Source of the DNA: Acidobacteriota bacterium
Lineage (GTDB): Bacteria; Acidobacteriota; Terriglobia; Bryobacterales; Bryobacteraceae
Direction: 5' to 3'
NCBI GenBank assembly: GCA_016871015.1
Contig: VFZX01000010.1
Coordinates: forward strand, 1 to 51,566
DNA: 51,566 bases
The position numbers and the translations under genes are program-made. Shown here piece by piece: positions 34,576 to 38,260 of the stretch. The notes under the pieces were generated by a model. That model was given only the letters and a program-made list of their open reading frames with translations, was not told the DNA's origin and ran no database searches. Position 1 is the first letter of the stretch. Each line of letters starts with the position of its first letter.

Positions 34576-34771
34576 TCACTCTTGTCGCGAGTGGGTGCGC
34601 CTGGTTTTAAGGAGTGTGGCCATCTTGTTTTTTGGAGATGTTCTGCTTCTTCATGGCCTCGGCGAGTTGCCAGGCAACCACTTCTTTTACGGCTTGAGCC
34701 TGGACCTCTTCAAAAAGACCTTCCTCCTTGAAAAAGTCATCAATGCTCGATCCGATATGCTTCTTGCTCAT
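34576..34771 (-). pseudogene. HigA/XRE-type antitoxin, frameshifted and truncated
   Basis: It starts well (GGGAGG eight bases before ATG) and reads MSKKHIGSSIDDFFKEEGLF and EVVAWQLAEAMKKQNISK, the N-terminus of XRE antitoxins of HigA type. In the run CCAAAAAACAAG one base is off: the in-frame reading ends at 34607, while the other frame continues as KMATLLKTRRTHS, the first helix of the helix-turn-helix. Even that frame stops early at 34576, so the DNA-binding domain is lost. Confidence 0.8.
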
Positions 34772-34868: not shown

Positions 34869-37271
34869 TCAGTTCCGCCGCACCGGACCTTGGTAGCGAT
34901 CCAGCCAGTCCAGCATTTCCCGTATCACCTGCGTGCGGACCGCGACAACTTCATGTGCCGCGTCAAACAGCACGTGCTTCTTGTGCGGCTCGGGCGTCCC
35001 GAACAGCCGGAAAAGGGCCTTCTGCGACGTTTCCACCGGATGGACGTAGTCATTCTTTCCATTCAGCATCAAGACCGGGACGCGAACCCGCGGAGCAAAG
35101 TGAAGCGGATTCACTTCTGGGAGGGAGGGCAAAAGGGACAACCCCCCGTCGGCCAGCACACCGCTCTTTAACCGGTTTTCCAACGCCAGTTGAATCGGTC
35201 CGAGGGAGGCTCCGAAGCTGACGCCGAAGAACGCTAACCGGTCCGCCGCGATGTCAGGACGCGTTTGCAAGTAGTCGACTGCGCGGCGCAGGTCCACGAC
35301 CTGTTGAACGATCATATCGCGGCGCTGCAGGGGCGTCTGGGACCGTGGCAGGCTCCGCTCGTACGTCCCCTGATATACCGGGTACATGACGGCGCGCCCG
35401 GCCCTCAGCAGGTACTCCAGGCGGGCCCATCCCTCGAGCGTCACCGTCTCGCTGTTCAAGCTGTTTAGAGCGCCGGCGCCAGGGTAGTAGACGATGGTTT
35501 CATACGGCGCTTTGGAATTTTTGGGAAGAAACAGCAGCGCGGGGACCCGTACCGCGCCGTATGGCGCCGTGTAGGTAATCCTCTCCCGCCGCCAGTAGGG
35601 CTGCGAATCGTCGGATCGATCGATTGATGCCGCCAACTCGGAGCTATCGTAGGCATACGCACGGCGGTAGGCGCCATACACCTCGTCCGAGGCCGGCTTC
35701 TCATCGAGGTTCCGCAGGATCGGGCGGACGGCGCCGAGCCACGACGCCGGAGGGGGCGAGGAGTACAACGCGCACCGGAATCCATTCAAGGCCGACCGGT
35801 CGAATGGCGGCCTCGCATCCGGATCGGTGAACATGTGGGCCGGTTCACTCCACCCGCCTCCGAGAATGACCCGCCTCCCCTCATCCGTGCCATTCCAGCA
35901 CCACTCCTTGACGTTGCCAGCCATGTCGTAGGTCCCATACGGCCCCTCTCCCTGATACTCCCCCACGCGCGCCAGTCCCTTGCCGGAAAAATTGCTGGAA
36001 GGCAGGACCCAGGTGCCGCTGTTCAGGCGCGCGGCGGCATACCAGTGCCATGCCGTGGGCAGTTGCTTCCCGGCGTACTCGGCATACGCCGCGGCCTCGT
36101 ACCAGCTCACACCGCTCACGGGATCATTTTCGCGGCCGGGCGCGAACGTTCCCGCCTCCCATGTAGAAGGTCCGGGCCGTCCGGTCGCGTCGACAAGCGC
36201 CGCCATCGCCTGCTCCCACGAGAGCGTCTTGCCGCCAAGGTTGAAGGGGTGTTTCCAGAACTTCTGGTCGCGGTACGCCCCGGCATCCACGAACTCCTTG
36301 AACTGCCGGTTGGTGACTTCGTGGCGGTCGATCATGAATCGCATCACGCCACCGGCAGCTTCCGGTGCGGCAAATCGCCGCGGTAGATCGAGAACCGCCT
36401 GCGGAACCGGAACCATGCCGGAAGGAATCTTTTCCTTGGGGTAAAGCGGGACCTTGACGCGGGCGGCAGCCGCGGTCATCACCCCGTAGCTCGATTCGAA
36501 GCCCTCCTTCTCAAACCTGAGGCGGAAATATCCCCGCGGAACTTGCACCGCCGGAAGAGGAGTCCTTCCCAGAGGCTGCCATTCGCGTTCACTCGATCGA
36601 AGGTCCTTATAAAAGGCCTCGGCGCCCTGCGGTTCGCTGTCGAGCGCCACAGTCCTCGATACCTCCCTCCGGAGATCGGCGAGCCTCGGATCCTCGCCGA
36701 GCATCGGTTGGACCCGGTTCGCAATGGAGAAGGCCGCGCAGAAGCGTCCCTCTTCCGTCAGGGATGCGATCAGAGGGAGCCCCTCGTTGCGCGCCCAGCT
36801 CGCCTGGCTCATTCTCATGTAGACGAATGCCGCGGCCGCCACCAGCGCCAGTCCGCCGGCGAGGACAGCCAGCCTGAGCCATCGGGGCCTCCTTGGTTCC
36901 TCTGCGGCGGGTTGAGGGGGCGGCGGCACCACCGGGTCCGGCGGCACGGATTGGAACTCGACCGGCGCGGAGAATCTGTACCCCACCCGGGGGACCGTCT
37001 CGACCCACCCGGCGCCCTCCTCGCCAAGCGCCTTTCGAAGCGTCGAAACCTGGTAGAGAAGGCTCGCTTCCTCAACGAAGACGTCCTTCCACAGCTCGTC
37101 CATCAACTCTCTCTTGGTGACCACTCTCCCGCGGCTGCCGGCGAGCACCAAGAGCAAGTCGAACGTCTTCGGGGCCAGCGGGACCACCTCGTCCGCGTGC
37201 CGCAAAGTCCGGGCAGCGGGCGACACCCGGTACGATCCGAACCGGATCAACTCATCTCGATTGTTCGACAT
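34869..37271 (-). CDS. Winged-helix regulator fused to PEGA, formylglycine-enzyme and alpha/beta-hydrolase domains
   Basis: 800 residues, apparently one intact frame. Seen: OmpR/CadC-type winged helix (about 8-104, VVPLAPKTFDLLLVLAGS, VETVPRVGYRF), a Pro-rich linker, one membrane helix (about 132-152), a helical segment, a PEGA-like module (about 236-278, GRTPLP..VPRGYFRLRFEKEGF), an FGE-sulfatase domain (about 284-502: IDRHEVTNRQFKEFVD, DPVSGVSWYEAAAYAEYAGK, YDMAGNVKEW, LNGFRCAL), and a dienelactone-hydrolase-like domain (about 565-795) with a plausible triad Ser685 (GVSFGAS), Asp741, His773. The DNA-binding part would be cytoplasmic and the enzymes periplasmic. Usual relatives carry a Ser/Thr kinase in the first position instead. 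Confidence 0.87.
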   Translation of the reverse strand: MSNNRDELIRFGSYRVSPAARTLRHADEVVPLAPKTFDLLLVLAGSRGRVVTKRELMDELWKDVFVEEASLLYQVSTLRKALGEEGAGWVETVPRVGYRFSAPVEFQSVPPDPVVPPPPQPAAEEPRRPRWLRLAVLAGGLALVAAAAFVYMRMSQASWARNEGLPLIASLTEEGRFCAAFSIANRVQPMLGEDPRLADLRREVSRTVALDSEPQGAEAFYKDLRSSEREWQPLGRTPLPAVQVPRGYFRLRFEKEGFESSYGVMTAAAARVKVPLYPKEKIPSGMVPVPQAVLDLPRRFAAPEAAGGVMRFMIDRHEVTNRQFKEFVDAGAYRDQKFWKHPFNLGGKTLSWEQAMAALVDATGRPGPSTWEAGTFAPGRENDPVSGVSWYEAAAYAEYAGKQLPTAWHWYAAARLNSGTWVLPSSNFSGKGLARVGEYQGEGPYGTYDMAGNVKEWCWNGTDEGRRVILGGGWSEPAHMFTDPDARPPFDRSALNGFRCALYSSPPPASWLGAVRPILRNLDEKPASDEVYGAYRRAYAYDSSELAASIDRSDDSQPYWRRERITYTAPYGAVRVPALLFLPKNSKAPYETIVYYPGAGALNSLNSETVTLEGWARLEYLLRAGRAVMYPVYQGTYERSLPRSQTPLQRRDMIVQQVVDLRRAVDYLQTRPDIAADRLAFFGVSFGASLGPIQLALENRLKSGVLADGGLSLLPSLPEVNPLHFAPRVRVPVLMLNGKNDYVHPVETSQKALFRLFGTPEPHKKHVLFDAAHEVVAVRTQVIREMLDWLDRYQGPVRRN

Positions 37272-37361
37272 ATCCGCCCTCAGGAATTCCTTAGAAATCG
37301 CTACGCCTCTCTCCGAACGATCCTCGGGACTTCATCATACCCCAAGGAGCATGATCCATTC

Positions 37362-38260
37362 ATGCGACTCATTCGACCCCGATTCTACACCGTCCTCCTC
37401 GCCGTCTTTTCCGCGGCCGGACTCGCCCAGACCGATTGGCAAACCCGTTACCAGAACGGCGAGCGTCTCCTCGCAGAAGGCCGGATCGAGGAGGCTCTGA
37501 CCGAGCTCAAACCTGCTCTCGCTCTCGCACCCGCGAAAGCGCGGGGCACGTTGCTCGACGCCCTGGGCCGGGCCGAGATTCAAGCCGGCCGGTATCGGGA
37601 GGCGAAGCGGCATTCGAGGCGTCCCTCCCGCTGTGGGAGACGCACACGCTGAACTGGGCGGTCACTCTCAACAACTTGGGGCGGGTCCACCTGGAGCTTC
37701 ACGAATACGCGCGCGCCGAGGAGGCGTTGCTCCGCAGCTTGGAGGTCCTCAGGAACGACGCCAGGCTGTGGCAAAACATCGGACAGGCTCAATTCTTCCG
37801 GGGACGGCTTCAGGCGGCCGAAGTCTCCTATTATCGGGCCCTGTCGTTGGCCGGCCCGGAACACGCACCCTCGATCAGCAGCGATCTGGCCGGCTTGCTC
37901 GAATCACGGCGTCAGTATGCCAAGGCCGCGGGGATCCTGCGGGAAGCGGTTGCCCGGTTGGGCGCCGGGCAGGTGCGGGCGAGGATGCTGGCCAACCTGG
38001 GGGTCCTGCAGTGGAGATTGAAGGAGAGAGTGGAGGCGGCCGCGCAACTTCGGCAGGCGCTCGGCGAGATGGAGTCCGCCGTTGGTCCCCACCACCCGGA
38101 CGTCGCCGCGGTTCTGGAGCGCTACCAGGCAGTGCTGCGCCAGTCCGGACGGAAGGCGGAAGCGGCCGCTGCCAGCCAGCGCGCCGCCGCGATCCGGTCG
38201 GGGTTTGCGCGGCACGGCAACGATCGGCAGACCTCGATCGATTGGCGGGACCTGAAGTAG
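37362..38260 (+). pseudogene. Exported TPR protein with a one-base frameshift
   Basis: Starts with a signal peptide (MRLIRPRFYTVLLAVFSAAG) and TPR-type helices (YQNGERLLAEGRIEEALTEL). Near 37605 the frame changes: the first frame degenerates to KRHSRRPSRCGRRTR and stops, while the frame one base back continues EAAFEASLPLWETHTLNWAV and further TPRs (LNNLGRVHLELHEYARAEEA) to the stop. One missing base after GGAGG would join them into an about 299-residue protein. It may be a true pseudogene or a sequence error. Divergent from the four-part fusion gene 90 bp away; such regulator/TPR pairs are common in this group. Confidence 0.8.

Follow-up and report, generated by a model that had tools for sequence, protein, structure and literature searches.

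CadC/ToxR-type transmembrane regulators (TTRs) are built from an N-terminal Trans_reg_C winged helix, one membrane helix and a large C-terminal part. The class is abundant, with the Acidobacteriae among the groups that hold above-average numbers, and the survey reporting this, as far as its accessible portion goes, also raises the descent of such regulators from two-component systems (PMC10269533). In the accessible part of PMC4522959, a figure legend mentions a formylglycine-generating sulfatase, and prolyl-oligopeptidase homologues, one of them from Solibacter, are named together with DNA-binding regulatory domains; a layout of winged helix, membrane helix, formylglycine-generating-enzyme (FGE) fold and hydrolase was not met in that part. 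According to the available sections of PMC8103513, kinase-switched ECF sigma factors carry uncharged residues such as STTA in place of DAED, with phosphorylation taking place at Thr or Ser. The TTR class, the domains themselves and their modular shuffling are known already. None of the titles and abstracts searched describes a repeated swap between kinase and DNA-binding heads on a single enzyme-like receptor, subscription papers lying mostly outside that search.

Here we analyzed a 51,566-nucleotide stretch of an acidobacterial genome (the window), which encodes a protein with the N-terminal winged helix, single membrane helix and large C-terminal part of a TTR. That C-terminal part comprises a PEGA-like module, an FGE-fold domain and a hydrolase, unlike those of the other TTRs scanned with Pfam in the same genome, four in number, which carry PD40 propellers (L004, L005) or TPR repeats (L002, L003). 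Compared with acidobacterial kinase-FGE-hydrolase proteins, with which the region from about residue 125 to the C-terminus is shared at about 32-49% identity (full-length rows), the kinase head is gone and a winged helix stands instead. Our preferred reading, to which we give a probability of about 0.7, is that the window protein is a CadC/ToxR-class transmembrane one-component regulator, in which an enzyme-like outer sensor acts on DNA without a kinase or sigma factor. Because a CadC-type domain occupies the usual place of the kinase, the sequence is naturally read as a path to transcription that involves no phosphotransfer.

Gene layout and domains of the probable regulator

The gene runs from ATG to stop on the reverse strand and encodes 800 aa, internal stops being absent from the open reading frame (ORF) listing. 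From N- to C-terminus, the protein consists of a CadC/OmpR-type winged helix, a membrane helix, a helical stalk, a PEGA-like module, an FGE-fold domain and an alpha/beta hydrolase, which are located as follows:

34869-37271 (-): whole gene, 800-aa transmembrane regulator (ORF; full-length relatives)
36954-37271 (-): winged-helix DNA-binding head, residues 1-106, with Trans_reg_C at 28-100 (Pfam, 3.5e-15; PDB CadC 5ju7)
36816-36881 (-): single membrane helix, residues about 131-152, with RRPRWLR just before it (hydropathy; model helix 130-173)
36660-36815 (-): helical stalk, residues 153-204 (model; conserved alignment positions)
36447-36659 (-): PEGA-like beta module, residues 205-275 (Pfam match below the cut-off; strands in the model)
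35757-36422 (-): FGE-fold domain, residues 284-505, FGE cysteine pair missing (Pfam, 1.4e-25; fold match to EgtB 4x8b)
34875-35747 (-): alpha/beta hydrolase domain, residues 509-799 (Pfam; Foldseek; fold match to 1l7a)
35217-35219 (-): codon of the nucleophile Ser685, in GVSFG (triad alignment)
35049-35051 (-): codon of Asp741 (triad alignment)
34953-34955 (-): codon of His773 (triad alignment)

The original prediction had placed all of the named domains, together with Ser685, Asp741 and His773, in a single open frame, which the ORF listing, Pfam, hydropathy and an AlphaFold2 model bear out, and the domain-architecture search that it had proposed recovered the same layout at full length in three other genomes, namely G869 (74% identity), G802 (72%) and G801 (70%). 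The first of these genomes belongs to the same genus as the window genome, and the G869 and G801 proteins are also loci L038 and L039, respectively. Since these relatives are full length and in the same frame in other genomes, a sequencing or assembly error that fused two genes is ruled out. In the window genome itself (G000, 8.66 Mb), there are 16 Trans_reg_C and 27 FGE-sulfatase matches, among which the 34869-37271 gene is, by position, the only one with both.

The Trans_reg_C domain scores 56.3 bits against a cut-off of 26.2, and the best solved-structure match of the head by sequence is CadC 5ju7 (4e-10). Hydropathy shows one strong stretch, at residues 131-152, the runner-up at 679 being the strand that precedes the nucleophile. 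In the AlphaFold2 model, which was computed from an alignment of 74 sequences (pLDDT 89.4, pTM 0.80) and used as a complete query in the structure comparisons (VIA-align, Foldseek), a long helix at 130-173 spans the membrane segment. Given that the winged helix must be cytoplasmic and that there is one membrane helix, the FGE-hydrolase part would lie outside. The linker between the head and the membrane (108-128) is the sole segment of three or more residues with a pLDDT under 50, and residues 107-129 are variable (30-35% identity). A linker of this kind would suit regulated proteolysis, by which the winged helix is released on a signal while the FGE-hydrolase part merely gates access of the protease; published members of the class, as described in the accessible parts of PMC10269533 and PMC11856585, regulate while membrane-anchored, and we regard release by proteolysis as quite improbable. 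Further along the chain, the PEGA match at 233-266 stays below the cut-off (17.8 vs 20.8 bits), as do those of L038, L039, L150 and L172, and PEGA exceeds the cut-off in four winged-helix-bearing relatives (L018, L022, L128 and L174).

The FGE-sulfatase match covers residues 302-501 and is over the curated cut-off (1.4e-25). By structure, the domain has the same fold as EgtB 4x8b (Z 22.9, rmsd 2.6, 207 residues, 30% identity); membership in EgtB is ruled out on score (71 vs 360 bits), as is membership in SenA (64.3 vs 420 bits). The fold is also common to formylglycine-generating enzymes, from which the window domain differs by its missing active-site cysteine pair. We located what we take to be the position of this pair on the alignment to the catalytic FGE 6s07, in which the pair is missing from the window protein, the profile alignment being weak over that stretch. 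There is no cysteine at residues 470-498 of the window protein, and among 95 aligned sequences a pair is found there in none and a single cysteine in two. The conserved pair, described earlier as "not obvious", is therefore absent both from the window protein and from all 95 aligned sequences, and identity as a catalytic FGE is ruled out for want of it. We infer, going one step beyond the missing cysteines, that the FGE chemistry is dead. A disulfide between C458 and C500 is unsupported, with both cysteines present in 57 of 95 sequences and one alone in 38.

In the hydrolase domain, Peptidase_S9 (best stretch 721-793, 3.1e-6) and Abhydrolase_2 (648-787, 2.9e-5) match over their cut-offs. The S9 catalytic-domain model reaches 27.3 vs 22.6 bits, and propeller families are absent from the Pfam matches of the protein. 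Cephalosporin C deacetylase 1l7a shares the fold and the triad (Z 25.4, rmsd 3.1, 265 residues), and CE7 acetyl xylan esterases are alike in fold by Foldseek and structure alignment, differing in that identity in the structural alignment is 19%. The AXE1 score of the window protein (14.1) is below the cut-off of 21 bits, and among 36 relatives, 22 have an AXE1 match with E no higher than 0.01. A complete Ser/Asp/His triad is found in 92 of the 95 aligned sequences, the exceptions being one with Cys for Ser, one with Met for Asp and one frame that ends before the His. All three residues align in each of 12 DNA-headed rows, 11 of which have G-x-S-x-G. Both the near-universal triad (92/95) and the structural similarity to acetyl xylan esterases and cephalosporin C deacetylase (Z about 25) would be expected if the protein were an envelope esterase first, with a winged helix that tunes the amount of enzyme (a trigger enzyme) and a reaction, instead of sensing, as the point. 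The remaining row, the winged-helix form L174 (1913-4426, -), has no G-x-S-x-G at the aligned position and no Pfam hydrolase match, and its hydrolase part is perhaps a sensor without catalysis any more.

Heads carried by the family and their changes on the tree

Family matches, taken at E up to 1e-40, occurred in 45 of the 396 genomes searched for the phylum, 40 of the 399 for the class and 31 of the 237 for the family, these genome sets overlapping; the third genome of the genus (G870) gave no match at 1e-40. Matches were retrieved in part, with 54 loci coming from a species genome collection, several labelled as other phyla. Two family searches were made with the window protein and favour winged-helix forms, because the query itself carries a winged helix. 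Ten duplicates, 16 short, cut or duplicate ORFs and ten repeat loci were removed before the final tree, which holds 139 distinct sequences with the FGE-hydrolase part, the window protein included. Heads were typed with in-house profiles made from three winged helices (the window's included) and twelve kinase N-termini, and the typing was cross-checked by Pfam for 15 proteins.

That FGE and hydrolase domains normally stand behind a Ser/Thr kinase, as the original prediction had it, agrees with the count of 119 kinase heads among the 139 distinct sequences. A winged helix alone is carried by 8/139, a winged helix plus kinase by 3/139, another HTH head by one (L109) and membrane segments only by three; five frames are cut, including L126, which is labelled kinase on the tree by default and in which no kinase was seen. 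Trans_reg_C is over the Pfam cut-off in all eight winged-helix-only proteins and in all three with an additional kinase (L018, L128 and L141), the latter combining a winged helix, a Ser/Thr kinase and an FGE domain in a single frame and reaching kinase scores of 158-170 bits. The kinase catalytic loop of L018 has HHD where HRD is expected. In the window protein, neither Pfam nor the in-house profile finds a kinase domain, and the CadC-type DNA-binding domain does take the kinase's place, as had been proposed; the swap is not unique, since there are several DNA-headed relatives.

Locus L109 (1195-3543, +) has the same outer part under a different HTH head, with weak matches to HTH_23 (0.0022) and HTH_17 (0.0075).

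The occurrence of the same hydrolase under a kinase, a winged helix, another HTH or membrane segments only speaks against a protein that is primarily an envelope esterase, as does the retention of the layout in L174, in which Pfam no longer recognizes a hydrolase. With the hydrolase placed under changing heads, a sensor with changing outputs fits better, and we consider the primacy of the esterase reaction unlikely.

On the 139-row tree, we counted five changes to a winged-helix-only head, four of which are forced by well-supported (starred) branches, three changes to winged helix plus kinase, all three forced, and nine between any DNA-binding head and none. On a 95-row tree, starred branches forced three winged-helix label changes, L018 counted. 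Both trees are quick ones, with SH-aLRT support alone. The changes could be gains or losses; given the strong predominance of kinase heads, independent gains would be the simplest account. A single clade of L001, L038, L039 and L022 was rejected (p-AU 0.0001), this being the one grouping to which the test of a single winged-helix origin was applied and one picked post hoc from the tree. By identity, the head of the window clade is nearest to the TPR-type membrane regulators of its own genome, L003 (47%) and L002 (46%), that of L022 is nearest to the PD40-type regulator L005 (55%), and that of L174 reaches at most 39% to any head compared. The heads of L018, L141, L171 and L172 are 43-59% identical to L004/L007, and since they are also mutually 48-58% alike, different sources for these four are unsupported. 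By these sequence comparisons, the winged-helix heads are of at least two kinds. Rewiring of the same outer sensor to direct action on genes seems to have happened more than once.

Between the window and L038, dN/dS pairs were 0.125/1.12 for the winged helix, 0.154/1.17 for the FGE domain and 0.139/1.56 for the hydrolase, and dN is likewise well under dS in the stalk and PEGA-like part; looser parts are the linker (0.715/1.08) and the membrane helix (0.36/0.66). These figures are rough, with dS near or above 1, program warnings and one value (linker, window vs L039) that came out invalid, and they indicate that the winged helix, FGE and hydrolase domains are constrained. A decaying or chimeric gene, in which the kinase was lost and the winged helix joined by accident to no function, would fit the broken frame of the adjoining TPR gene in the window (see below). 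Against such decay stand the low dN relative to dS in all three domains, the recurrence of the architecture in three further genomes of the family and the several separate changes on the tree, and we find it hardly credible.

Neighbouring genes and a candidate operator

Some kinase-headed relatives adjoin PF07638-type sigma genes with Ser/Thr motifs at the DAED place, as in the kinase-switched ECF43/ECF59 type, and in this they differ from the window, in which the same profile found no PF07638-type sigma gene. Neighbour clustering covered loci L038-L091, and the ECF cluster was the one examined. Among distinct loci flanked on each side by 700 bp or more, an ECF sigma gene lies within 900 bp in 15/46 kinase-headed vs 0/7 DNA-headed ones (p = 0.17, not significant), and with the flank limit dropped in 23/108 vs 0/8 (p = 0.35), counts that exclude the sigma genes of later loci (L149 on). 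As a contrast between head types, the ECF neighbor is not significant at any flank limit (p 0.35, 0.17, 0.17), and the winged-helix form L038 has an ECF gene 2.2 kb away. Three of the neighboring sigma genes were confirmed as PF07638 by Pfam. Of 31 sigma ORFs scanned by pattern, seven gave no match and that of L038 matched off target, leaving 23 usable motifs, duplicates included. All 23 carry Ser or Thr and none is DAED; at the position, which was placed by this analysis itself, we saw QTTA, QPTA, QATA, ESAA, DVTG and similar motifs, several with one acidic residue. A Ser/Thr motif may be general to the whole sigma family. The same-genus genome G869, as binned, contains both L149, which has a winged helix, and L176, which has a kinase and an adjacent ECF gene with motif QTTA; as this genome is 77% complete with 4% contamination, their coexistence may be an effect of binning.

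Upstream of the regulator, the window has a divergent gene and an intergenic region with these features:

37362-38260 (+): gene for a TPR-repeat protein, divergent (TPR matches in the L038 relative)
37272-37361 (no strand): divergent intergenic region with a candidate operator (clade alignment; weak)
inside 37322-37331 and 37278-37287: repeat copies TCCCGAGG and TCCTGAGG, 44 bp apart, candidate operator
37282-37291: palindrome AGGAATTCCT, candidate operator

Each of the four window-clade members has the TPR gene next to the regulator in divergent orientation, and at all other searched loci the matches to it were two weak ones (L167 and L179, E about 1e-5). In the window, the TPR gene is split over two frames near 37600, either by a real break or by a sequencing slip, and the frames of its L038, L039 and L150 relatives are uninterrupted. 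The start codons of regulator and TPR gene are 90 bp apart in the window, and the gap was searched in alignments of three, then four clade members for the nearby operator that the original prediction had suggested looking for. The palindrome and a repeat pair like TCCTGAGG are conserved in the clade, with a repeat spacing of 44 bp in the window and L038 and of 33 bp in L039 and L182, and in its 15-base form the palindrome is found at a single place in the window genome. The signal is weak: one of the repeat copies falls in the ribosome-binding region and a comparable pair arises in 40-50 of 500 simple shuffles, which makes the operator a weak candidate.

Beside the winged-helix form L022, the divergent gene (198-1337, -) encodes a repeat-rich protein with a hydrophobic start. 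Downstream of the window regulator, a frame of about 54 aa (34607-34771, -), apparently the N-terminal start of a protein that ends early, looks like what we presume to be a small HTH-type antitoxin-like protein, cut short. An Rfam scan of the window at gathering scores gave no match.

Proposed signalling route and its wider bearing

In the one-component regulator that we favor, the winged helix would sit in the cytoplasm and be linked by the single membrane helix to a periplasmic sensor, which would consist of the PEGA-like module, an FGE-fold domain devoid of catalysis and a hydrolase of esterase type whose triad is intact. The FGE-fold domain may serve as a platform for binding a ligand or peptide, and an outside ligand would be bound or turned over by the FGE-hydrolase pair. 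This event could change conformation or pairing across the membrane and so lead the winged helix to bind DNA and regulate genes close by, foremost the regulator's own and the TPR gene divergent from it, in a direction that could be either activating or repressing. In most relatives, the same sensor would drive a Ser/Thr kinase, about one third of the testable loci having as a neighbour an ECF sigma gene whose type is possibly switched by phosphorylation; here, the DNA-binding head would supplant this putative cascade.

The origin of membrane-bound transcription regulators is an open question on which the series of heads bears. One outer sensor occurs with kinase, winged-helix, winged-helix-plus-kinase and other HTH heads, the two main wirings being binned in one same-genus genome, and such heads on one sensor therefore provide matched pairs in which signaling by kinase and sigma factor can be tested against direct DNA binding. 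The hydrolase, which is widespread and keeps its triad, makes a concrete candidate for an enzyme in the role of signal receptor. Plant strigolactone receptors of the D14/KAI2 type catch or covalently turn over their signal molecule. By analogy, the outer hydrolase might be a true receptor-enzyme that catches or covalently turns over a signal and has been plugged repeatedly into kinase, DNA-binding or mixed heads, a tentative idea that we put forward with more doubt than confidence. If this is true, the family would be a set of natural head swaps, in which the coupling of a single outside signal to different outputs could be measured.

At locus L060 (5194-10295, +), a kinase-headed copy is directly followed by a second copy headed by a membrane segment only, the two adjoining copies appearing as if they were a receptor pair.
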